Assembly: GCA_018646195.1 (NCBI GenBank)
Contig: JABGVH010000234.1
Span: forward strand, 1-32,543
Direction of reading: 5' to 3'
DNA from: Halobacteriovoraceae bacterium
GTDB taxonomy: Bacteria; Bdellovibrionota; Bacteriovoracia; Bacteriovoracales; Bacteriovoracaceae
Length of the DNA: 32,543 nt
A program made the position numbers and the translations under genes. Of this stretch, positions 5,120-27,157 are shown piece after piece; position 1 is the first letter of the stretch; the number at the start of each line of letters is the position of its first letter. The notes beneath the pieces were generated by a model. It was not told the DNA's origin, did not search any database, and saw only the letters and a list, made by a program, of their open reading frames with translations.

Positions 5120-6151
5120 TTAAAGCGAAGTAAATAGTGGAAGTACTTGTGCCAAAGGTTCAAGTACTGAGGAGTCGAGACCAAGATGCGTCACGAAACG
5201 AATCCGCTGAGGACCAAACTGAACAGCTAAAATCCCATGCTGATTTAGAAAATTTAAAAAATTCTTTGGTGAATAATTTTTAGAGAGGTCAAATAAGACT
5301 ATGTTTGTTTGCCCATTAAAAACTTCTTTAATATAAGACTGCTGCTTTAATAATTCTCGTAAACTTTCTGCCAATAAATGATCATCTGCAAGTCGTTCCC
5401 TATTGTGTTCAAGAGCATAAATTCCTGCCGCAGCTAAAAAGCCTGCCTGGCGCATTCCTCCCCCCATCACCTTTCTAACCTGGCGGGCCTTTCTAATGGT
5501 TCCTTCATCACCTAAAAGAAGAGAACCAACTGGTGCGCCTAGACCCTTGGATAAACAAATTGAGATTGTATCAAAAAGGCCCCCGATTTTTGCAGTTGGT
5601 ATAGCGGTCTCCGCTAGTGCATTGAATAACCTCGCTCCATCTAAATGCAGCTTCAAATTTTCTCTTTTACAAATCTCAGAAATAGCTTCTAGTTCTTCTA
5701 GCGAATAAGTAGCTCCCCCTCCCCGATTGGTGGTGTTTTCGAGACATACCAAAGTAGTTTTCGGCTTGTGAATGTCGTCAGGATTTATGGCATTCATAAT
5801 TTGATCTTGAGTTAATTTTCCCTGATCACCATTAACCGTTTTGACAGAAGCTCTCGAATTAAAAGCAACTCCACCAACTTCATATTGATAAATATGATTG
5901 CTCTCTTCAATTATAATTTCGGATAGTGGTGGAGCTTGTAAAAAGACCGCAATTTGATTGGTCATGGTTCCAGAGGGACAAAAGAGAGCGGCCTCTTTAT
6001 CAAAAAGCCCGGCTGCCATTTCTTCCAACTTGTTAACACTTGGATCTGTTCCAAAAACATCATCCCCTACTTCGGCCTCCATCATGCACTTCAACATTTT
6101 GGGAGTAGGAGTTGTCACGGTATCACTGCGCAGGTCGATAATTTTTTCCAT
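5120..6151 (-). CDS. ltaE: Low-specificity L-threonine aldolase
   Basis: 343 residues, the usual size. The enzyme is a cytoplasmic fold-type-I PLP protein that splits L-threonine or L-allo-threonine into glycine and acetaldehyde. Family landmarks are in order: DLRSDTVTTPTPKM (6-19), VGDDVFGTDPSVN (28-40), CPSGTMTNQIA (58-68), the PLP-stacking His in ESNHIY (84), LDGARLFNA (170-178) with the PLP-binding Asp, and the Schiff-base Lys202 in LSKGLGAPVGS. All catalytic positions I can check are intact. Glycine made this way feeds one-carbon metabolism. No operon partner is obvious; the next gene downstream is 99 bases away. Confidence 0.93.
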   Translation of the reverse strand: MEKIIDLRSDTVTTPTPKMLKCMMEAEVGDDVFGTDPSVNKLEEMAAGLFDKEAALFCPSGTMTNQIAVFLQAPPLSEIIIEESNHIYQYEVGGVAFNSRASVKTVNGDQGKLTQDQIMNAINPDDIHKPKTTLVCLENTTNRGGGATYSLEELEAISEICKRENLKLHLDGARLFNALAETAIPTAKIGGLFDTISICLSKGLGAPVGSLLLGDEGTIRKARQVRKVMGGGMRQAGFLAAAGIYALEHNRERLADDHLLAESLRELLKQQSYIKEVFNGQTNIVLFDLSKNYSPKNFLNFLNQHGILAVQFGPQRIRFVTHLGLDSSVLEPLAQVLPLFTSL

Positions 6152-10703: not shown

Positions 10704-11825
10704 TTAAGAGAGGGAATGGCGCAGTAAATAGGCAACAAATAAGCCGAGATAGTTTCCTACAGCGTATCCGACCAATCCAGCACTCAGCCCACTAGGAATC
10801 AATTGCGGATTATTCAAGGCCTTTGCCACCGGAGCGACTAACGCAGGACCAAAAATACCGGCCACATTGGTAATGATCGCAGTGTCTCTATCTATTTTAA
10901 AGACGTAGGCCATTGTGAAAAAGAGACTCACCGCTAATAAAAAAACAAAAGCAGTAAACTTGAAAATACTGGGTGCCATTTGCATTACAGAGCTAAAGTC
11001 GACCAGTGTACCAATCGAAAGACAAAATACTAAAAGTAGATACTCTCCTAAAAAATAGGAGTTTTTTAACGCTCTAATTTTTTTCCTAGAGCTAGCGAAA
11101 ATTGCCAATGCTGTGATCAATAAAAAATAAAATGGAACAGATAATTTTTCGAAAAAGGCCAAATTAACATAATAAGCAATCAGGCAAATAAGCAAGGCTA
11201 AGATAAGAGCGATAAATCCGTCTCGCCAAGATTTTCGACACCCATTTATTTCAACTGCAAGCCCATCGCTCTTACTGTTTCCTTTGTCGTAATTAGGTAG
11301 GAATAGGGCAATCAACTTAGGACCAATTGAAAGCATAAAAATTATATAGATCGTCGACATTAACATATCGGCGGAATTGAGAGAGAGAAATAATCCATGA
11401 TCGGCGTTGAGCGCTAAACTTATTGCGCTCATATTTGGTGTGCCGCCAGTATAAACTCCTGTTAGCATTCCGGCCCATTGCCAGCAACCGAGCTGATCAG
11501 AAAAGAAAAAATAAGGAATTGTTAAAGTACTAATCACCACGCAGCTGGTAGTTAAACAGAAACTTAAAACCGTCGTACGAGCGTCTTTAAGCCAACCCCG
11601 GAGGTCCAGGGGAAAAAGCATTAATGGAACTGCAATTATCACCATTACCTGTGACAAGCTTTTCGAAACTTCTGAGTGGCCTTGAAAATAAGAAATTGGA
11701 TTGAGAATCATTCCAAGAGCGTAACAAATAAGTACCGAGCCTATCGCGGCAATAAATTTAAATCTTTTTTCTAAAAAAAGTACTAGCCCAGGGATTGTTA
11801 GATGAAATAAAAGGATCCCTATCAT
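10704..11825 (-). CDS. DUF819 family integral membrane protein
   Basis: 373 residues with about ten hydrophobic segments. The central motif GVYTGGTPNMSAISLAL with preceding CWQWAGMLTG, and the C-terminal GIFGPALVAPVAKAL with AGLVGYAVGNYLG, are hallmarks of the DUF819 (YjcL-type) family, transporter-like inner-membrane proteins without an assigned substrate. Its ATG overlaps the stop codon of the TetR-type gene (sequence ATGA at 11825-11822), so the two are translationally coupled and the regulator probably controls it. A regulator and membrane protein pair opposite a lipid-breakdown operon suggests export or uptake of a related small molecule, which is inference. Confidence 0.85.
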   Translation of the reverse strand: MIGILLFHLTIPGLVLFLEKRFKFIAAIGSVLICYALGMILNPISYFQGHSEVSKSLSQVMVIIAVPLMLFPLDLRGWLKDARTTVLSFCLTTSCVVISTLTIPYFFFSDQLGCWQWAGMLTGVYTGGTPNMSAISLALNADHGLFLSLNSADMLMSTIYIIFMLSIGPKLIALFLPNYDKGNSKSDGLAVEINGCRKSWRDGFIALILALLICLIAYYVNLAFFEKLSVPFYFLLITALAIFASSRKKIRALKNSYFLGEYLLLVFCLSIGTLVDFSSVMQMAPSIFKFTAFVFLLAVSLFFTMAYVFKIDRDTAIITNVAGIFGPALVAPVAKALNNPQLIPSGLSAGLVGYAVGNYLGLFVAYLLRHSLS

Positions 11826-12469
11826 TTTATCTCTGCATTCTTTATCAGTTCAGAAACTATATCTAAGGTCCTTTGATGATGTATCGCTGAGGAGCCCTCT
11901 ACTGGGTCCAGTAACGAGAGTAAAACTGAGCCTACAATTACCGGGTGAATCTTAAGCGCCAATCCCTCAACATTAGTCAGTTCTGGATAGACTCCCCTAC
12001 CTACTCCTTGAAATAAAAGGCCAGTTAGTCTAGATCTCATAAGATCGAGGTATTGCGCATGGTAGTCTGCATAATGTGAGTCGATTGAACCTAGGTAGTA
12101 GAAATGGAGGTAAAAACGTGAGTGATGGGGAAAAGTTTTGATCCACTTAAAAGCAATATCTATATAATCGCTCATTCCTGCAAAATTATCACTAGCTAAC
12201 CTCTGCTCTAGTTCAAAATTTATAAACTTAATACTCTCTTGTGAAACATAGCGGATTGAACTTTCCATAAGTCCTAATTTTTCTTTGCCCCCAAAATGAT
12301 AGTGTATGGAACCCAGGCTTAAATTCAGCTTTCTAGCTATCTTATCCATCGTAACTTCACTCACTCCAATCTCAAGACAGAGTGAGAGGTAGCCTTCTAG
12401 GATTTGGATCCTTTTCGAGCTAAGCGGGAGCTGCTGCAGAATTTCTGGTCGATAGTGAGCTGTTTTCAA
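11822..12469 (-). CDS. TetR/AcrR-type transcriptional regulator
   Basis: 215 residues. The N-terminal helix-turn-helix (VTMDKIARKLNLSLGSIHYHF, about 39-59, with GGKEKL after) is the classical TetR DNA-binding signature; the C-terminal 150 residues form the ligand and dimer part, which is not recognisable to a subfamily. The start is TTG at 12469, supported by AGGA at 12480-12477 with a 7-base gap; the first internal ATG would cut into the helix-turn-helix. It is co-transcribed and coupled to the DUF819 gene and divergent from the sphingolipid operon. Two palindromic repeats in the intergenic space are the likely operators, so autoregulation and control of the operon are expected. Confidence 0.85.
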   Translation of the reverse strand: MKTAHYRPEILQQLPLSSKRIQILEGYLSLCLEIGVSEVTMDKIARKLNLSLGSIHYHFGGKEKLGLMESSIRYVSQESIKFINFELEQRLASDNFAGMSDYIDIAFKWIKTFPHHSRFYLHFYYLGSIDSHYADYHAQYLDLMRSRLTGLLFQGVGRGVYPELTNVEGLALKIHPVIVGSVLLSLLDPVEGSSAIHHQRTLDIVSELIKNAEIK

Positions 12470-12493: not shown

Positions 12494-12535
12494 TATTTGA
12501 ATTTTTATTCAATTTATTTGAATAACCGTTCAATT
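12494..12535. promoter_or_regulatory. Two tandem 21-bp palindromic operators
   Basis: Two adjacent 21-base units (12494-12514 and 12515-12535) are identical at the first 9 bases (TATTTGAAT) and last 7 bases (TTCAATT) and differ only in the 5 central bases. Each contains a dyad: TTGAAT-TTTT-ATTCAA (12497-12512, perfect) and TTGAAT-AACC-GTTCAA (12518-12533, one mismatch). The 21-base spacing is two helical turns, so dimers would sit on the same DNA face. Conserved half-sites with a free centre are typical of TetR-family operators, and the TetR-type gene starts 25 bases away. Confidence 0.75.
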
Positions 12536-12592: not shown

Positions 12593-14734
12593 ATGAACAG
12601 AAAATTAAACGCTCAGCATGTAGTCCTATTTTTTCTTCTGCTCTTTATAATTGGCTGTGGCGTAGATGACCAGGCACCTGAGGATGGACAGGTCTTCAAA
12701 ATTGATGAATTGGCCCAGCAGTGTAAAGTCGATGGAGAAAAGCTTAAACTTTTTTTCCACGAAAAGATTGGCAATGACCTCAATTGTCTAGGTGATGGGT
12801 TAAGAACTTTTTCACAAGTCGTCCTAAGAGAGAATCCTAAGTACATTAACAGACCCGAGTTAAGCGCCTTTTTAAAGAAATTTTTTCCAAATGATTGGGC
12901 CCACTTAAAAGAATATCTTCCATTAATTTTTGAAATTAATTCCTTCTTAACTCGTACTCCTAAAAACCGTATTCAAATAAGCAAAATCAACCATTTCATA
13001 GAATTAATGGTGATTATAAATAGCGGTATAGTCGATATTATAGATATTCAAGAAAGGATGAGTCCGGAAACTTATTTTAACCACCTCCCCTCTTTTCAGA
13101 TTGCTATTACAAACTTTATAGTGAAACTCAATGGGTCAATTCTTAAAGAGGGCCTAGACTACCAACTAAACCTAATTGAAATTCTCAATATTCTAGAAAG
13201 AAATACCCAGGATGATGCAAAAGCCTATAAAAAAATAAAGAGTTTGTTATTTATTAAACGTCTTTTTATAGGAAATAGTGCTGAACTGCTAACGACGAAT
13301 GAACTTTTGAAAAATTTAAATAAAATTCAAGAGCTCTACCTAGCTGCTGATGGCATGCTAAATACAAATTTTAAAAGTTTTTCGAATCAAAAAGAACAGG
13401 CCTCTTTCTTAATTATCAATTTTAAAAAAATACGGGCAGCTCTTTTTCCATGGAACCCTAAAACTAAGATAATAAGTAGTGAAAAACTTCTGACTGCAAT
13501 AGGCTCCTTTTATCAGGGCTTCGATTGGTCAAAGTTAAAAGTTAGCTTTTCAAATTTTAAAGATAAAGTGGTCGGAAACCCCGGCCCTAGTTTTCTCTAT
13601 TCTGATTTCTTAAAAATATTTGATATTGGAAAACTCGGGCTATCACAGTTTTACTTCACCCAAATTTCATTTCAAAAACTCAAAACGTTACTACAAGCAG
13701 GAGTCAAAATAGAGGAGCTTGATTTTCCTGATGGCCCAGAATATGACTTCTTCTCTAAGGCAGAAAAAGACCGTTACTGGAAAATATTTAATACTATTTC
13801 TCTTCAATACCATTACTTTCTCGATAAAGAAGATCAGCAAAGTTTTCAATATAAGCTAAAGAGGAGTGAGAGAGGATTTACATTACTGACTGTCGTTAAA
13901 TGGGGCCTTCGAATAATTTTTGATAGCTACGGAGAGGGAAAGTCTTCACTTTCAAGAAAACAGCTCGCCTACTTTCTGAATCAATACAAAGAAATTCTTG
14001 TCGAATTAAATTTATGGTTAGTCGATAAAAATAAATTAATCAATGATATTGCTGAGGGAACCGATTTATTTCAAATGACTTCAAACGGAAACGGCTTGAT
14101 CGAGGAGGACGAAATAACTCAATTTATATTTACAGTGGTCCATTCAAGAAAGGTCAGTCATAAACTATTTGATTACTTAAAAGATATTTGCCAATATTCT
14201 TCAGCTAAAAAAATTGATCTTTCTTGCTATAGACGTCATTTCTACCCTACTTTTCTAGAGACTCTTGCTTACAAAGAGCAATACCCTCTCCTGAAAAGCT
14301 ATATCTCTCCAATGGCAAGTGAGGCAAAAGAACAATTCCTACGAGATGTAGAAATTAAATCAAGAATCCAGCCTAGCGAAAATATTCCGATGGATAAGAT
14401 TGATTTAACTCGGATTATTAATGCCTTTTCAAACCTAGAAACTTTATATATTCGATTTGATCACGACAAAAATCAAGTTTTAGAAAAAAATGAATTAAAC
14501 CAGGTTTTCAAATTATTTGAAGGTATCATAGCAACCGAGACCGGAAAGAAGATTGGCTCAAAAATTAATCGAAGTCTTTTTATCTATCTTATCAAGAAAG
14601 GACATGCACCTAGTAAGGCACAACTTATAAAATTTCATTTGTTTGGAAGTAAAAGAAAAGCAAAGCTAACAAAGAATAAAGTCGCAAAAATATTATCTCT
14701 ATTTGGCAAAAAGGAGTCATTCAATGACCACTAA
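12593..14734 (+). CDS. EF-hand lipoprotein, first gene of sphingolipid operon
   Basis: 713 residues when started at ATG 12593 (GGAG at 12580-12583). The frame is open from 12497, but that would place the start inside the operators. The N-terminus is a lipoprotein signal, LLLFIIGC, with the lipid-bearing Cys near residue 22. The body is helical and charged. It contains one good EF-hand loop, DHDKNQVLEKNE (623-634, acidic or Asn at positions 1, 3, 5, 9 and 12), and a second near 496-507 (TSNGNGLIEEDE) lacking Asp at position 1; a degenerate third may lie near 444. A calcium-binding envelope lipoprotein is therefore likely, probably at the outer membrane. No enzyme domain is recognised. The next gene starts before this one stops (11-base overlap). 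Confidence 0.8.
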   Translation: MNRKLNAQHVVLFFLLLFIIGCGVDDQAPEDGQVFKIDELAQQCKVDGEKLKLFFHEKIGNDLNCLGDGLRTFSQVVLRENPKYINRPELSAFLKKFFPNDWAHLKEYLPLIFEINSFLTRTPKNRIQISKINHFIELMVIINSGIVDIIDIQERMSPETYFNHLPSFQIAITNFIVKLNGSILKEGLDYQLNLIEILNILERNTQDDAKAYKKIKSLLFIKRLFIGNSAELLTTNELLKNLNKIQELYLAADGMLNTNFKSFSNQKEQASFLIINFKKIRAALFPWNPKTKIISSEKLLTAIGSFYQGFDWSKLKVSFSNFKDKVVGNPGPSFLYSDFLKIFDIGKLGLSQFYFTQISFQKLKTLLQAGVKIEELDFPDGPEYDFFSKAEKDRYWKIFNTISLQYHYFLDKEDQQSFQYKLKRSERGFTLLTVVKWGLRIIFDSYGEGKSSLSRKQLAYFLNQYKEILVELNLWLVDKNKLINDIAEGTDLFQMTSNGNGLIEEDEITQFIFTVVHSRKVSHKLFDYLKDICQYSSAKKIDLSCYRRHFYPTFLETLAYKEQYPLLKSYISPMASEAKEQFLRDVEIKSRIQPSENIPMDKIDLTRIINAFSNLETLYIRFDHDKNQVLEKNELNQVFKLFEGIIATETGKKIGSKINRSLFIYLIKKGHAPSKAQLIKFHLFGSKRKAKLTKNKVAKILSLFGKKESFNDH

Positions 14735-16160
14735 GCATTTATCATGGCCTATACACGGCGATAAACCTGAAAATATTTTGAAAAAATTGGAAGAGAAGAA
14801 AAAGTCCGATATCGACTGGGAGGGCGGGAAGGTTTTCAGCCTCGTATTTAAAACAGATAAGGAACTAGGAGATCTTTCCAAGGCCGCCTATAATATGTAT
14901 TTTTCAGAAAATGCCCTTAATCCTTCAGCTTTCCCAAGTCTCAAAGAGATGGAGAAAGATGTTGTAACCATGATGACCGAACTACTAGGCGGAAATGAAA
15001 ACTCAAGTGGCTCATTTACTTCCGGCGGGACCGAAAGCATTCTCATGGCAGTTAAAACTGCAAGAGAGTGGGCAAAAACCAATCACCCGGAAATAACTGA
15101 ACCAGAAATGATTATTCCTCTTACCGCTCACCCTGCATTTAATAAAGCAGCCCATTATTTTGGAATAAAGTTAATCACGATTGATACTGATCAATCGTAT
15201 AGGGCCGACCTCACACAACTAAGCGACAAAATCTCTTCCCGGACGATTTTAATTGTGGGGTCGGCTCCTTCATACCCTCAAGGAGTAATTGATCCAATAG
15301 AAAGCATGGCCAAGATAGCTAAGGAAAAAAATATTCTATTTCATGTTGATGCCTGTATTGGGGGAGTCTTACTTCCTTTTCTAAAACTAGATGGGGTGGT
15401 TTCCGAAAACTTTGATTTTTCAGTTCCTGGCGTCACCTCTATTTCCGCTGACCTCCATAAGTATGGATATACTCCCAAAGGTTCCAGTGTCGTACTCTAC
15501 AAGGATAAATCTTTAAAGAGATTTCAATTTTTTACTACCACCAATTGGCCAGGAGGAATGTACGGCTCACCGACCGTTACAGGAACTCGCCCGGGAGGAG
15601 CAATCGCTGGCTCTTGGGCAGTGATGCAATACCTCGGTTTTGAAGGTTATCAGAATCTTGCCCGGAAAATTTTTAAAGTCACCCAATCATATGCTGACAA
15701 AATAGATCAATTTGAAGGTATTTCATACGCCATGAGGCCAGAGAGCAGCATAATTTGTCTAACCTCTCAAAAATTTAATATTTATCAAATTGGCGATGAA
15801 ATGCAAAAAAGAGGCTGGCATTTGGATAGGCAACAAAATCCTTCGAGTTTACACATGACGGTAATGAAGGCCCATGAATTTGTACAGGATGAATTTTTTG
15901 AAGATTTAAAATTGTCTCTAGAGGTTGTGAAAAGCTTCGATAAAAAAATGCAAGGCCTAAAAACCTCCATGACAAGAGGAATGATTAAGGCGATGCCTTC
16001 TGGAATGGTTAGCTCTCTGATCAAGGGGAAAGGTAAGAAAATGGGCGAATCAAACCAAGACGAACCGAATACTGCTGCTATGTATGGCATGATGGGGGCG
16101 ATAAAAAAGCAAAGCGATCTTGATAGCCTTATATTAGATGTTATGGAGCAATTATTTTGA
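14724..16160 (+). CDS. Sphingosine-1-phosphate lyase family PLP enzyme
   Basis: 478 residues from ATG 14724, chosen because AAGGAG (14711-14716) sits 7 bases upstream; a TTG at 14703 in frame is rejected. Sphingosine-1-phosphate lyases split phosphorylated sphingoid bases into a long-chain aldehyde and phosphoethanolamine. The sequence follows the family closely: NALNPSAFPSLKEMEKDVV, GSFTSGGTESILMAVK, TAHPAFNKAAHYFG, GVIDP, FHVDACIGG, SISADLHKYGYTPKGSSVV with the PLP Lys246, and GGMYGSPTVTGTRPGG. It lacks the N-terminal membrane anchor of eukaryotic lyases, as known bacterial ones do. Related PLP decarboxylases (glutamate, tyrosine) lack the TAHPAFNKA and HKYGYTPKGSS combination. It overlaps both neighbours, which places it in one operon. 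Confidence 0.9.
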   Translation: MTTKHLSWPIHGDKPENILKKLEEKKKSDIDWEGGKVFSLVFKTDKELGDLSKAAYNMYFSENALNPSAFPSLKEMEKDVVTMMTELLGGNENSSGSFTSGGTESILMAVKTAREWAKTNHPEITEPEMIIPLTAHPAFNKAAHYFGIKLITIDTDQSYRADLTQLSDKISSRTILIVGSAPSYPQGVIDPIESMAKIAKEKNILFHVDACIGGVLLPFLKLDGVVSENFDFSVPGVTSISADLHKYGYTPKGSSVVLYKDKSLKRFQFFTTTNWPGGMYGSPTVTGTRPGGAIAGSWAVMQYLGFEGYQNLARKIFKVTQSYADKIDQFEGISYAMRPESSIICLTSQKFNIYQIGDEMQKRGWHLDRQQNPSSLHMTVMKAHEFVQDEFFEDLKLSLEVVKSFDKKMQGLKTSMTRGMIKAMPSGMVSSLIKGKGKKMGESNQDEPNTAAMYGMMGAIKKQSDLDSLILDVMEQLF

Positions 16161-16816
16161 TAAAAACCCTATTGATCCTTTTATTTATGTTTCCCTCTCT
16201 ATTATGGGCAGAAAAAACCATAGAGGGTGTAACGGTAGCTTCTTTGAAGAAAGATAAAGGACGTTTGATAAGTGCGAAGGCCTCAAAAATATTCGAATTA
16301 GATATTAAAACTGTCAGCAAAAAAGTTATAGATTTTGAAAATAAATGTAATAATGACCTGCGCAGAAAAAGAAAACTTATTTCAAAAGAATCAAATTGCC
16401 TTTACCCCAATAAGAACGTCATTGAAGCGGTAAAACTTCCATCGTTAAAGCCTAATTGTAAAAAATGTTTTCTTATATTTCGGAGAATCTATAATCGTTC
16501 TTATTTCCAGCACTATGACCTAATTGAATCTAGTTCTAGTGGGATTTCTACGATAATCAATCACCGAATGTTATCTAATGAAAAGCTATCCGAATATATT
16601 ACGCAACCAAAGAAAACCAGGTCTGCCTTTAAAAGCTTAAGTGGCCAATTTAAACTTACCAAGCTTGAAGATAAGAAAACTAAGGTGGAATATTTTTATA
16701 AGGCCTATACTGAGAATTGGCTTTTAAACCTTGAAATTACCCAAAATACATTACTAGAAAATGTTGCAAATGGGGTGCGGGCTACAATTGATGCCATTGG
16801 AATAGTTCATGAGTGA
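16157..16816 (+). CDS. Exported protein, possibly START/SRPBCC-like
   Basis: 219 residues. The start is TTG at 16157, overlapping the lyase stop by 4 bases, with GGAG at 16145-16148 and an 8-base gap. This start gives a signal peptide, MIKTLLILLFMFPSLLWA, so the protein is periplasmic or surface-bound. The C-terminal 110 residues alternate strands and end in a long helix (WLLNLEITQNTLLENVANG, then VRATIDAI). This strand-helix order resembles START/polyketide-cyclase folds that hold lipids; ceramide carriers such as CERT use that fold. The assignment is a structural guess without a diagnostic motif. Four cysteines, including the pair NCKKC, could form disulfides. Its position between lyase and ceramidase makes a lipid-handling role plausible. 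Confidence 0.55.
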   Translation: MIKTLLILLFMFPSLLWAEKTIEGVTVASLKKDKGRLISAKASKIFELDIKTVSKKVIDFENKCNNDLRRKRKLISKESNCLYPNKNVIEAVKLPSLKPNCKKCFLIFRRIYNRSYFQHYDLIESSSSGISTIINHRMLSNEKLSEYITQPKKTRSAFKSLSGQFKLTKLEDKKTKVEYFYKAYTENWLLNLEITQNTLLENVANGVRATIDAIGIVHE

Positions 16817-17519
16817 ATTTACGATCATCCCTCCGGAGCCTCATTGCCCATGGTATCAGGCCCATACTTCAGCTCCACCAAATATTGATTGGTGTGAGGA
16901 GAGCCTCTGCAGTTGGATCCATGAGCCGGCCAATACCTGGTCTAACCTTGCCTATTTATTTGTAGCAATTTATCTTTTTAAGCTTCTTCGCAATAGCAGT
17001 AGTGAATTCCGTTGGTTTTCTCCTGCAATGTTTTTAATGGGCCTATTCTCACTAATTTATCACGCCTCTTATAATTTCTACACTCAGTTTTTTGATTTTC
17101 TAGGTATGTATATTTTCACTCTTCACTTATTTTGCCTCAATATATATAGGTTAAGAAAAAAATCAAACTATCCCTTAAAACTATATCTCGGTTTGATTAG
17201 CTTATTTTCAGCAATTACAGTTTTCGGATATATTTACAAAATTAAATTTCAAGTATTAATAATTATTATTGCTGGCATGATAATTTTAAGCGAGTATTTT
17301 TGTTGGAAAATTAAAACAACAGCAATAAATTATCAAAATTATATTATATCACTTTTCTTAATTGTTATTGCTGCAACATTTTCGGTTTTAGATATTAGCC
17401 GAACCTGGTGCGATCCAAAGAATCATTGGCTGCAGGGGCATGCCCTTTGGCATCTCTTTAGCTGCCTTTCTCTCTACTTTTCTTTTCTTTTCTATAGGCA
17501 ATTTGAAAAAAATGAGTGA
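16809..17519 (+). CDS. Alkaline ceramidase-like membrane hydrolase (CREST family)
   Basis: 236 residues, about seven membrane segments. Alkaline ceramidases hydrolyse the amide bond of ceramide to a fatty acid and a sphingoid base inside the membrane. The three signature blocks of this family are present. First, NIDWCEES then HEPANTWSNL, which includes the calcium-site residues Asp27, Glu30 and Glu39 (compare DWCEENY in human ACER3). Second, SLIYHASYNFYTQFFDFLGM with Ser81, His85 and Asp96 at the spacing of the catalytic Ser, zinc His and Asp. Third, GHALWHL with His211 and His215, the remaining zinc ligands. Cys29 and Cys201 match the pair that forms a disulfide in ACER3. It overlaps both neighbouring genes by 8 bases. 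Confidence 0.88.
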   Translation: MSEFTIIPPEPHCPWYQAHTSAPPNIDWCEESLCSWIHEPANTWSNLAYLFVAIYLFKLLRNSSSEFRWFSPAMFLMGLFSLIYHASYNFYTQFFDFLGMYIFTLHLFCLNIYRLRKKSNYPLKLYLGLISLFSAITVFGYIYKIKFQVLIIIIAGMIILSEYFCWKIKTTAINYQNYIISLFLIVIAATFSVLDISRTWCDPKNHWLQGHALWHLFSCLSLYFSFLFYRQFEKNE

Positions 17520-18276
17520 GTTGAAATATCTTTTAGTTTTCGTATTTCTTATATCGCTCAATGCGAATGCTGGGAGTTGGGATAGCAAAGCTACGCAGTT
17601 GGGACGAACCTATCCCCAGGCGGCAGTTGTAGGAGGCGAATTCGGTTATTCCCAAAAATTTTGGAACAGTCGTAAAAGTCCTGTTTTATATGGCCATCTA
17701 AGGCCCGTTTTAAGAGCAAAAAGCTCAGGGCTAGTAAATTCATTTTCAACTGAGCTTAATTTTGCTCCCATTTCTTTCCTCAACTTTTCGATTGGGAGAA
17801 GACAAGTTTTTAGAAATGCCAAAAAGCTTCAAGGCCTAGATTGCGAGAAAATTATCTGCGATGGAAAGGTTAAAAGAGATTATCTAGCTGTTCAATTTGG
17901 AATGGCCTATAAAAAGCTATACTCTTTTCTTCAATTTAAAAGAGCAAAACTAGCACATGCCGAACAACAGAATTTAATTGCAGATGAGCAATCAACTTTA
18001 GTCTATAACCAGCAACAAAACCGCTTAAAACAATTAACTTTCCTGGTTGGTCTCAAACAAGATCCTAAAAACTCCTATGGTCTTCTTTATTTAGATAATG
18101 AGATTGAATTAGAAAATAGCACCACTAAAACTCTGTCGCCCTTTTGGCAGAGGTCATTTAAAAAATGGAAAGTGATGACGCTTCCCGGCATTTTTCAACG
18201 CTCTGACAAAAAAAGATTCCTAAGCCTTATAATTAGGGCGGAATGGACATTTAAAAAAGGCCTGTCTCTTTTTTAA
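17512..18276 (+). CDS. Outer-membrane-type protein, last gene of the operon
   Basis: 254 residues. ATG 17512 is chosen because it directly opens a signal peptide (MSELKYLLVFVFLISLNANA, then G); a TTG at 17521 is a possible alternative. The frame is open further upstream, but that part lies within the ceramidase gene. The mature protein has repeated amphipathic strands such as LRPVLRAKSSG and LNFSIGRRQVF, and ends with an aromatic strand (RAEWTFKKGLSLF), consistent with a small outer-membrane barrel. Two Cys (LDCEKIICDG) may be bridged. The family is not recognised. The overlap with the ceramidase gene (8 bases) suggests it works in the same pathway, for instance as a lipid or fatty-acid channel, which is inference. 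Confidence 0.65.
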   Translation: MSELKYLLVFVFLISLNANAGSWDSKATQLGRTYPQAAVVGGEFGYSQKFWNSRKSPVLYGHLRPVLRAKSSGLVNSFSTELNFAPISFLNFSIGRRQVFRNAKKLQGLDCEKIICDGKVKRDYLAVQFGMAYKKLYSFLQFKRAKLAHAEQQNLIADEQSTLVYNQQQNRLKQLTFLVGLKQDPKNSYGLLYLDNEIELENSTTKTLSPFWQRSFKKWKVMTLPGIFQRSDKKRFLSLIIRAEWTFKKGLSLF

Positions 18277-18376: not shown

Positions 18377-18907
18377 ATGAAAAAACTACTCTTCATCCTC
18401 TCATGGGGATTCTCTAGCTCGCTACTGGCCGCTCCTCTTGTGCATACGATTGTTCAAGACTCTCTTATTGAAAGGGGTACCATTACATTTAATGTTACCA
18501 AAGTGGGACAGAAAAACATCCTTTCAATAAAATCGAAGGCCAAGACTACCTCCTGGCTGCTAGGTACTAAAAAAGGCGAAACAAAAATTGAATTGCCTTC
18601 TCATTACCTAAGTGAAGAAGGTTACCGAAAATTAGAACAAGACGGTCATTACAAAGATCATTATGTCTCATTAAAGTTTAGTGGCAGAAAAGATTTTGGC
18701 CCTTATTATGACTGTTATAAAGTTTCGATGAGAATTAATAAAAAGCCAGGTTGGAATATGCGCTTTACTTACTGTCCTGAAATACCTGCACTCGGTTGGG
18801 GTGAGGCGACTCTTTTCGTTCCAAAAATCCCATTTTATGGGGCACATACCTTTAAGTCTTATTGGAACCGAATAGATCCAAGTTACATTAAGCTAATCGC
18901 AAACTAG
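18377..18907 (+). CDS. Exported protein, unrecognised
   Basis: 176 residues with a signal peptide (MKKLLFILSWGFSSSLLAA). The mature part has two cysteines (YYDCYKVSM and FTYCPEI, 20 residues or so apart) that could pair, and is rich in beta-forming segments. There is no Shine-Dalgarno ahead of ATG 18377. A -10-like TATTAT at 18362-18367 would place the transcription start within a few bases of the ATG, so translation may be leaderless. The 100-base gap from the operon contains a 12-base direct repeat (ACAGAAAAATAA at 18313-18324 and 18329-18340). The stop overlaps the convergent gene's stop by 4 bases. Confidence 0.7.
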   Translation: MKKLLFILSWGFSSSLLAAPLVHTIVQDSLIERGTITFNVTKVGQKNILSIKSKAKTTSWLLGTKKGETKIELPSHYLSEEGYRKLEQDGHYKDHYVSLKFSGRKDFGPYYDCYKVSMRINKKPGWNMRFTYCPEIPALGWGEATLFVPKIPFYGAHTFKSYWNRIDPSYIKLIAN

Positions 18908-24452: not shown

Positions 24453-26627
24453 ATGAAAAAAAAAATACTCTGCACCCTAGGACCTAGTTCACTCAACCGT
24501 AAAGTTATCAAGCGCCTTACCGACCTTGGAGTTGATCTATTTCGAATTAACCTCTCACATACCCAGTTAGATGAACTGCCAAACGTTATCGATGAAATTA
24601 GAAAACATACCCTCGTTCCAATCTGCCTCGACTCCGAAGGCGCTCAAGTCAGAACCGGAAATTTTTCTTTTGATGAATTAACAGTTAGCGACAATAGTCT
24701 TTTATATTTAACTAAAGATAAAAATAAGGAATCAGAAAAATACATAACTTTGAATTATCCAAGACTACTCGATCAAATTGAAGAGGGAGACTTTATCAAT
24801 ATTGATTTCAATTCAGTTCTCGCTCAAGCTGTCGAAAAAAGTGGCGATGATATTCTTATACGTATATTAAATGGCGGTAAAATCGGAAAAAACAAAGCTG
24901 TCACTATTCAGAAGAGCATCGAAATGCCGGCCTTAACAGATAAAGATAAGGCCTGTTTTAAGTTAGGTATCGAAAAAGGTATCGCTCATTTTGCCCTTTC
25001 TTTTGCCAACCGAGCTTCAGATGTTTTAGAGACACGAAATATTATTGGAGAGGATTCCTTCTTAATATCAAAAATCGAATGTACCAATGGCCTACTTAAT
25101 TTAGAAGAGATTACTTGTGCCAGTGATGCAATCTTGATTGACCGAGGTGATTTATCAAGGGAACAACCGATCGAAAGAATCCCTATGCTTCAGAGGCATA
25201 TCACCAGAGAAGCAGTTAGACTCAATAGAGAAGTTTATATTGCCACAAATTTACTAGAGACAATGATTGATTCACCTCAACCAACAAGAGCTGAAGTTAA
25301 TGATATTTATAATAGTCTTAGGGATGGAGCTGATGGGCTAGTACTTGCAGCCGAAACGGCGATCGGGAAATACCCTACCGAAGCGGCTTCAATGGTTGTT
25401 AAATTGATACATGAGTTCGAAAACGAAGACCAAGCCTTATTCGATGACCGGAGTTATTACCACGCTGATCCAATGTCCTTATTAATTCCTCCTCATGGAG
25501 GGAAATTAATAAATCGATACCGTCCAAATTATGATCTAAGTGGCTTAGAAAAGGCCCCACGCTTAACCGTTCAACTAAATGACTTGATGGATTGTGAACA
25601 GATAGCTTTTGGTACCTACTCTCCCGTAGAAGGATTTTTTACAAAAAAAGAATTAACTTCTGTGCTTAGTAACTATCGCCTTCCCTGTGGCACGGTCTGG
25701 CCACTACCACTTGTCTTGGCCATAAGCGATCAGCAGAGAAAGGGACTTAAAATAGGTCAAAAAGTTATATTACAAAGTGAATCGCTGACCGAACATGCTG
25801 TACTTGAAATTGAAGATCTCTATCAAATGGACCTCGATAAAATGGCCGAGGCATGGTTCGGAACTAACTCCATGGATCATCCGGGAGTTCTTCGCCTTCA
25901 CCAACAAGGAAATAATTTTATTGGTGGCAAAATACAATTAGTTAAGAAACTAGTTTCTTCTACTGGCCAGTATGAACTTACTCCTTACCAAACTCGTTTT
26001 ATTTTTAAAGCAAAGGGCTGGGCTAAAGTAGTAGGCTTCCACACCAGGAATATTCCTCACCGCGCCCACGAGTTTATTCAAAAAGAGGCCCTAGAGCGTT
26101 CCTTTGCGGACGGTTTGTTTATAAGTCCGGTTACAGGTCCAAAAAAGAAAGGCGACTTTAAAGGGGAGCCTATTTTAAAAAGCTATCAGGCACTCATCGA
26201 TGCCGGATGCTACCCAAAAGATAAAATTCTTCTCGGGGCATTCCCTACTTTCTCTCGTTATAGTGGCCCTAGAGAGGCGGTCTTCACCGCTCTTTGCAGA
26301 AAGAACCTAGGCTGTAGCCACTTTATAATTGGAAGGGATCATACCGGAGTTAGTAATTTCTATGGCCCTGATGAGAATTTTAATTTATTTAAAAAACTAG
26401 GCGAAATAGAAATTGAACCCGTCTTTTTTAATATTGTTGGCTATAATCCTGAAAAAGAAAACTATGAAGAATCAACAAGTGCTACTAAACATTTAGAAAA
26501 TATTAGTGGTACCCAAGTGAGAGATGCCCTCAAAAAAGATAATCCCCTTCCCACTTGGTTCATAAGAGAAGAAGTTCAAAATGTAATCCGTGAAGAAATT
26601 CAAGTCGGCAAGCAGGTTTTCTACTGA
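24453..26627 (+). CDS. Pyruvate kinase-ATP sulfurylase fusion
   Basis: 724 residues from ATG 24453, where the pyruvate-kinase start KKKILCTLGPSS fits; a TTG at 24435 would add six residues. Residues 1-325 are a pyruvate kinase barrel: FRINLSH (30-36), LDSEGAQVRTG (59-69), LISKIE with Lys207 and Glu209, IDRGDL with Asp233, and Thr265 in IATNLLETM. The C-terminal pyruvate-kinase allosteric domain is absent, and Lys of the usual TKGPE motif is Glu62. Residues 350-724 are ATP sulfurylase: FHTRNIPHRAHEF, GRDHTGVSNFYG and ISGTQVRDAL are the nucleotide and sulfate motifs. The sulfurylase makes APS from sulfate and ATP. The kinase domain could regenerate ATP from PEP or be regulatory, which is inference. 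APS kinase follows with a one-base overlap. Confidence 0.88.
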   Translation: MKKKILCTLGPSSLNRKVIKRLTDLGVDLFRINLSHTQLDELPNVIDEIRKHTLVPICLDSEGAQVRTGNFSFDELTVSDNSLLYLTKDKNKESEKYITLNYPRLLDQIEEGDFINIDFNSVLAQAVEKSGDDILIRILNGGKIGKNKAVTIQKSIEMPALTDKDKACFKLGIEKGIAHFALSFANRASDVLETRNIIGEDSFLISKIECTNGLLNLEEITCASDAILIDRGDLSREQPIERIPMLQRHITREAVRLNREVYIATNLLETMIDSPQPTRAEVNDIYNSLRDGADGLVLAAETAIGKYPTEAASMVVKLIHEFENEDQALFDDRSYYHADPMSLLIPPHGGKLINRYRPNYDLSGLEKAPRLTVQLNDLMDCEQIAFGTYSPVEGFFTKKELTSVLSNYRLPCGTVWPLPLVLAISDQQRKGLKIGQKVILQSESLTEHAVLEIEDLYQMDLDKMAEAWFGTNSMDHPGVLRLHQQGNNFIGGKIQLVKKLVSSTGQYELTPYQTRFIFKAKGWAKVVGFHTRNIPHRAHEFIQKEALERSFADGLFISPVTGPKKKGDFKGEPILKSYQALIDAGCYPKDKILLGAFPTFSRYSGPREAVFTALCRKNLGCSHFIIGRDHTGVSNFYGPDENFNLFKKLGEIEIEPVFFNIVGYNPEKENYEESTSATKHLENISGTQVRDALKKDNPLPTWFIREEVQNVIREEIQVGKQVFY

Positions 26628-27157
26628 TGGCACTTGTTCTTTGGCTGACTGGCTTATCTGGTTCCGGAAAGACCACTTTGGCTGAATACGCTGCGAAGGA
26701 ATTATCTGAAAAAAAGACGTCCTCTACTATTATTGATGGAGATGATGTTCGCGATTCTTATCCAGAAAAACTAGGTTTTTCAAAAGTAGATATTCTTAAA
26801 AACAATCGCTATATAGTCGAGCTCTGCCAAAAAAAATCGGACCTTTTTGACGTCATATTTGTCCCGGTCATTTCGCCATACGAAGAGTCGAGAGCACATG
26901 CACTTAAAACTCTGGGAAAAAGCTGCAGTATTATTTATCTCAATGCCGATCTAGCATCTGTAGAAAAACGCGATGTAAAAGGCCTCTATAAAAAGGCGCG
27001 CGCCGGGATTATAAATAATATGATTGGATTGGCCGATTCAAACCCCTACCAAGTCCCCTCTTCACCGGACTTAATACTAAGCACTGGCCTTAATGGAGAC
27101 GCCCCAGAGGCCAGCCTCAAACAACTATTGGCCTTTATCGAGCAAAAATTATGCTAA
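26627..27157 (+). CDS. cysC: Adenylylsulfate (APS) kinase
   Basis: 176 residues. The enzyme phosphorylates APS to PAPS, the sulfate donor for sulfotransferases. Walker A GLSGSGKTT (9-17), the DGDDVR box (37-42), ISPYEESR (82-89) and VKGLYKKARAG (117-127) match the family. The C-terminal NPYQVPSSPDLIL is also typical. The start overlaps the stop of the fused sulfurylase by one base (TGATG), so sulfate goes to APS and then PAPS in coupled fashion. No CysH, CysD or CysN gene is near, so PAPS may serve sulfation of glycans or lipids rather than cysteine synthesis. Confidence 0.92.
   Translation: MALVLWLTGLSGSGKTTLAEYAAKELSEKKTSSTIIDGDDVRDSYPEKLGFSKVDILKNNRYIVELCQKKSDLFDVIFVPVISPYEESRAHALKTLGKSCSIIYLNADLASVEKRDVKGLYKKARAGIINNMIGLADSNPYQVPSSPDLILSTGLNGDAPEASLKQLLAFIEQKLC

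Follow-up and report, generated by a model that had tools for sequence, protein, structure and literature searches.

Do the genes at this locus form a dedicated bacterial pathway for the breakdown of ceramide-type lipids, and whose lipids would it act on? Ceramidases and lyases of the kind encoded here are best known from animals and fungi. The window (the whole stretch of DNA analysed, 32,543 nucleotides) is a complete contig of a 254-contig assembly, and the genome measures 3.8 Mb. It contains five successive open reading frames on the plus strand, overlapping by 11, 4, 8 and 8 bases, and the original prediction of an overlapping five-gene operon was accurate in both coordinates and overlaps. 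The conserved unit is larger than these five genes, and includes a regulator and a transporter gene on the minus strand that were missing from that account:

10704..11825, minus strand: DUF819 membrane protein, probable transporter (PF05684, 125.8 bits); position kept in relatives
11822..12469, minus strand: TetR-family repressor, divergent from the operon (PF00440, 31.7 bits, cut-off 24); position kept in relatives
12497..12533, no strand: tandem pair of operator-like palindromes (TTGAAN6TTCAA, spacing 21 bp), seen as sequence repeats
12593..14734, plus strand: gene 1, 713-residue lipoprotein, candidate EF-hand protein (lipobox LFIIGCG); first gene of the module also in relatives
14724..16160, plus strand: gene 2, PLP-dependent lyase of the sphingosine-1-phosphate (S1P) lyase superfamily, PLP lysine K246 (PF00282, a domain of PLP decarboxylase type; PDB matches)
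16157..16816, plus strand: gene 3, exported protein of predicted START fold, probable periplasmic lipid carrier, TTG start (AlphaFold2 and Foldseek)
16809..17519, plus strand: gene 4, alkaline-ceramidase-type membrane hydrolase (CREST) (PF05875, 68.9 bits; Zn-site residues)
17512..18276, plus strand: gene 5, probable outer-membrane beta-barrel protein (signal peptide, C-terminal Phe, conserved Cys pair); last gene of the module also in relatives

The DUF819 and TetR genes overlap by 4 bases in the window, and in related genomes the same divergent pair, again overlapping or abutting, precedes the block. The order DUF819-TetR, followed divergently by EF-hand lipoprotein, lyase, START protein, ceramidase and outer-membrane protein, is kept in assemblies of Halobacteriovorax, Bacteriovoracaceae and other Bdellovibrionota, and its gene-by-gene recurrence across genera shows that the arrangement is not due to chance. 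A few loci depart from the scheme: L094 has the module without the START gene, and in L092 and L093 the START gene is absent and the ceramidase gene lies beyond TetR, with DUF819 located downstream in L092. The gene at 18377 was considered as a sixth member and rejected, as related loci have no homologue of it. The DUF819 gene also adjoins, or lies very near, a related lyase gene at nine loci in six other phyla (Planctomycetota, Myxococcota, Bacillota, Nitrospirota, Chloroflexota and Bacteroidota), and the linkage of transporter and lyase therefore extends beyond this family. A sequence search of the PDB returned no solved relative of DUF819.

Elsewhere in the window, a single frame at 24453-26624 (plus strand) encodes a pyruvate kinase barrel (PF00224, 240 bits) together with a PUA_2 domain and an ATP-sulfurylase (PF01747, 229 bits), a fusion that is to our knowledge unusual; an APS kinase gene follows directly at 26627-27157 (plus strand). 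A threonine-aldolase-type PLP enzyme (PF01212, 320 bits) is encoded at 5120-6151 (minus strand) and is unrelated to the module.

The divergent intergenic region suggests how the unit could be regulated. The neighbouring protein has a TetR_N domain, and the exact tandem pair of palindromes is unique in the genome, where the next best site has 3 mismatches. Similar single or double palindromes are present in the gap between the same two genes of relatives. A local TetR repressor that binds these repeats and controls both transcripts would be the natural explanation.

Base composition had been taken as a hint of horizontal transfer. Four genes of the operon are indeed richer in AT than their surroundings (GC 0.33-0.375, against 0.417 over 21 flanking genes); the lyase gene, at 0.407, is not. 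Recent transfer was rejected: codon use falls inside the range of the flanking genes, relatives share the cluster, and the module lyases form one coherent clade (SH-aLRT 91). A phage origin of the ceramidase gene was likewise rejected, as no viral match was found.

Judged by its sequence, gene 4 encodes an alkaline-ceramidase-type (CREST) hydrolase, with ceramide hydrolysis as its putative activity. Its match to the Pfam family Ceramidase lies well above the gathering threshold (32.5 bits), while Per1 and SID-1 remain under their cut-offs, and the best PDB match of the A3 alignment profile is human ACER3 (6g7o, E 6e-4). The Zn site of ACER3 is formed by H81, H217, H221, D92 and S77 (PMC6303388); these residues align with H85, H211, H215, D96 and S81, all of which are invariant in alignments A1 and A3. 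The Ca site (D19-W20-E22-N24-E33 in ACER3) is retained less completely, with D27, W28, E30 and E39 present, N24 replaced by S32, and the residue corresponding to E33 changed to Asn in two relatives. A Cys pair (C29, C201) is present at the location of the C21-C196 disulfide.

The lyase encoded by gene 2 is also related to the eukaryotic enzyme, and the homologies claimed for both enzymes are supported. In the PDB it matches human S1P lyase best (330 bits); MfnA, a tyrosine decarboxylase, reaches 137 bits, and an MfnA-type decarboxylase was rejected on account of this much weaker match. With Table 3 of PMC6148460 as the source of reference residues, the PLP-site residues K246, H245, D209, C211 and H136 are kept, and Ser353 is replaced by Thr. 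The substrate-phosphate site is altered: two of its five residues are conserved (N126, here N63, and K317, here K252), and A/T103, Y105 and H129 are replaced by L40, F42 and N66. All 92 bacterial homologues scored have Asn or Ser at position 129. Not every enzyme that bears the name S1P lyase has His129: in the Burkholderia pseudomallei enzyme this position is Gln (Table 3, PMC6148460). In the tree, which contains only two references, the bacterial homologues are set apart from both Symbiobacterium S1P lyase (StSPL) and human S1P lyase. Because of this separation and the altered phosphate site, we assign the protein to the S1P lyase superfamily and do not call it an S1P lyase, although its closest solved relatives and PLP residues are those of that enzyme. 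The replacement of His129 by Asn or Ser is shared across a large bacterial S1P-lyase-like subfamily (80 loci, L084-L163), with many members in Chloroflexota and Bacteroidota.

The three remaining proteins are envelope candidates. Signal peptides are visible in the translations of genes 3 and 5. Gene 3 has no Pfam family or PDB match by sequence, and the START-like character proposed for it is borne out by its predicted fold instead. In the AlphaFold2 model (pLDDT 80.7), the protein adopts a START helix-grip fold, and Foldseek places START domains at the top of its PDB matches (ACOT11, STARD10, StAR, the ceramide carrier CERT and a bacterial START protein; E 4e-8 to 3e-6, TM about 0.5). The predicted fold resembles that of carriers of ceramide and sterols. 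On the basis of this model it is a probable periplasmic lipid carrier. For gene 1, the lipoprotein assignment holds, but a canonical EF-hand is not supported: PF13405 scores 17.4 bits, below the Pfam cut-off of 25, and EF-hand-like loops are limited to residues 496-507 and 623-634. The AlphaFold2 model (pLDDT 81) consists of repeated helix-loop-helix units, two of them with these loops, and an attempt to identify the protein by fold yielded no significant PDB match. Genome G005 encodes a second homologue of the lipoprotein (L043, 2-1774, plus strand), some 6 kb away from its module. Gene 5 has no Pfam match; its terminal Phe, on which the proposal of an outer-membrane-type protein was based, is seen in the translation.

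Among 291 genomes of the phylum, the lyase is found in 46. The ceramidase is present in 44/46 of these and in 47/245 of the others (Fisher p 4e-24, uncorrected for kinship). The two genes lie no more than about 4 kb apart in 11/11 module genomes, and this linkage, together with the presence of the module in other genera, bears out the expectation that the genes co-occur in related genomes. In two other families, f8 and f20, six genomes have lyase and ceramidase as an adjacent two-gene pair. A homologue of serine palmitoyltransferase (SPT) is also encoded in 11/11 module genomes, in agreement with the suggested link to the cell's own sphingolipids; the ten other copies are 66-73% identical to that of the window genome. 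The latter has Sphingobacterium SPT as its best match (380 bits), and its top NCBIfam match is the SPT model, although under the equivalog cut-off (487 of 640 bits). Behind the SPT homologue comes a conserved gene for a GNAT acyltransferase-like protein. Many SPT-bearing relatives do not have the module. Conversely, 15 same-family genomes outside the module clade carry lyase and ceramidase and gave no SPT match at the threshold used. Own-lipid use is therefore not general for these enzymes, and for these 15 genomes a foreign substrate is more likely. Lyase and ceramidase genes stand in separate places in same-family genomes without an SPT match (G020, G023, G004, G018, G039, G120, G190, G218 and others), and their lyases, where present in the tree, belong to another lineage.

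No kinase gene is found in the module. The single DAGK-family kinase of the window genome was rejected as a missing sphingoid kinase, because it sits in a separate conserved cluster of eight genes that occurs, complete or partial, in two genomes lacking the module as well. Moreover, the DAGK-family kinase is absent from three module genomes of genus g47 that are 92-100% complete. The kinase step expected in such a pathway is unsupported: either another kinase family provides the phosphate, or the lyase needs none. The eight-gene cluster itself (L083, 962-13037; L186-L190 and L192; partly L191) encodes a PPDK/PEP-utiliser, a UbiA-like protein, an AMP-ligase and a formyltransferase, with a DAGK-type lipid kinase, an SDR, an acyl-ACP-reductase-like protein and a DUF3419 protein in its divergent half, and may represent a lipid pathway of this family that is still uncharacterised.

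Bacterial sphingolipids reside in the outer membrane. We propose that the locus is a self-contained, TetR-regulated module that moves and breaks down ceramide-type lipids, mainly those of the cell itself, for turnover or detoxification, and give this reading a probability of roughly 0.55. The outer-membrane protein and the EF-hand lipoprotein would work at the outer membrane, with ceramide carried across the periplasm by the exported START protein. The intramembrane Zn ceramidase would then strip the N-acyl chain. The sphingoid base released in this way, in phosphorylated or some other activated form, would be the substrate of the cytosolic PLP lyase, whose retro-aldol cleavage would yield a long-chain aldehyde and a product of the ethanolamine type. 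DUF819 may serve as the inner-membrane transporter of a product, a substrate or a counter-ion. TetR, bound to the tandem operator, would keep both transcripts repressed and would be released by a sphingoid base or acyl product. We infer these transport steps, substrates, ligands and the direction of flow; the gene set and its conservation, the family homologies, catalytic residues, operator-like repeats and genomic SPT homologue can be read directly from the DNA. The proposal is based on the conserved module, the linkage of lyase and ceramidase, the co-occurrence with SPT, the ACER3 residues, the START fold and the operator-like repeats. Counting against it are the altered phosphate site of the lyase, the kinase-free module, the SPT score below the NCBIfam cut-off, the replacement of ACER3 N24 by S32, and the SPT-bearing relatives without the module.

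The same chemistry could serve to scavenge foreign sphingolipids from prey, neighbours or eukaryotes, with the outer-membrane and START proteins importing them and the products feeding fatty-acid and ethanolamine metabolism. Import would fit the outer-membrane and periplasmic partners, unlinked lyase and ceramidase genes are found in the SPT-negative genomes of the same family, and there is a precedent in Pseudomonas, where a sphingosine-induced regulon includes a secreted ceramidase (PMC5150637) and a predicted PLP aldolase, SphD (PMC11893366). We nevertheless consider this use unlikely for the module, which encodes no secreted neutral ceramidase or sphingomyelinase and is accompanied by an SPT homologue in every sampled genome.

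Other doubts concern the enzymes themselves. The lyase may possibly cleave a free sphingoid base, a lyso-sphingolipid that bears a head group (for example a phosphonolipid) or a sulfonate analogue, in which case no kinase would be necessary. The changes at positions 103, 105 and 129, the last without His in all bacterial homologues scored, point in this direction, as do the g47 genomes with a module and no DAGK-family kinase and the sphingophosphonolipid contained in Bacteriovorax stolpii (PMC6148460). We hold this to be doubtful, given that N126 and K317 are kept, that the Gln129 of the Burkholderia pseudomallei enzyme weakens the argument from His129, and that a kinase of another family could act. 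A more specific version, which we likewise regard as improbable, is a kinase-free bacterial ceramide breakdown in which a lyase subfamily with a rebuilt head-group pocket cleaves the free or head-group-bearing base, fed by a START shuttle and controlled by a TetR sensor. Very unlikely, in our view, is a role of both enzymes outside sphingolipid metabolism, with the CREST protein hydrolysing another amide lipid (an N-acyl-amine or aminolipid) and the lyase being a different PLP decarboxylase or aldolase. The CREST and group II PLP families are broad in function, and relatives of the lyase are common in Chloroflexota and others; however, the scores of the lyase against human S1P lyase and MfnA, the best match of the ceramidase profile, the START fold and the co-occurrence with SPT all point to sphingolipids.

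The routes by which bacteria synthesise sphingolipids have recently been worked out. The breakdown of a bacterium's own ceramides is little described in the open-access papers searched, and the conserved cluster makes the question testable. The module also points to possible roles for DUF819 and for the alkaline ceramidases of bacteria, and it raises the possibility that many of the bacterial proteins now annotated as S1P lyases act on something else. A dedicated bacterial operon of ceramidase and lyase with envelope partners was not known to be described, and we found no description of this operon or gene combination in the open-access literature; the components belong to known families, and the lack of a description is not proof of novelty.

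Compared with eukaryotic catabolism (ACER3, sphingosine kinase and SGPL1/Dpl1), the module uses the same two enzyme superfamilies with conserved Zn and PLP residues, and START carriers such as CERT are part of the same lipid pathway. It differs in that the genes are clustered and probably co-regulated, in being kinase-free, in the changed phosphate site of the lyase and in its envelope partners. Among the bacterial systems described so far, the Pseudomonas SphR regulon (cerN, sphBCD) comes closest; it resembles the module in combining a ceramidase with a predicted PLP aldolase. Its secreted neutral ceramidase is of another family, its regulator is of the AraC type, it includes a periplasmic oxidase and cytochrome, and it acts on host lipids. 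StSPL (3mad), a bacterial S1P lyase, shares about 39% identity with the window lyase over 421 columns and has the PLP-site residues in common, but its A103, Y105 and H129 correspond to L, F and N in the window lyase. Finally, ceramide synthesis in Caulobacter depends on Spt, bCerS and CerR (PMC11087976). The SPT homologue of the window genome and the acyltransferase-like gene behind it would be a plausible counterpart of that synthetic system, whereas the module itself is proposed to be degradative.
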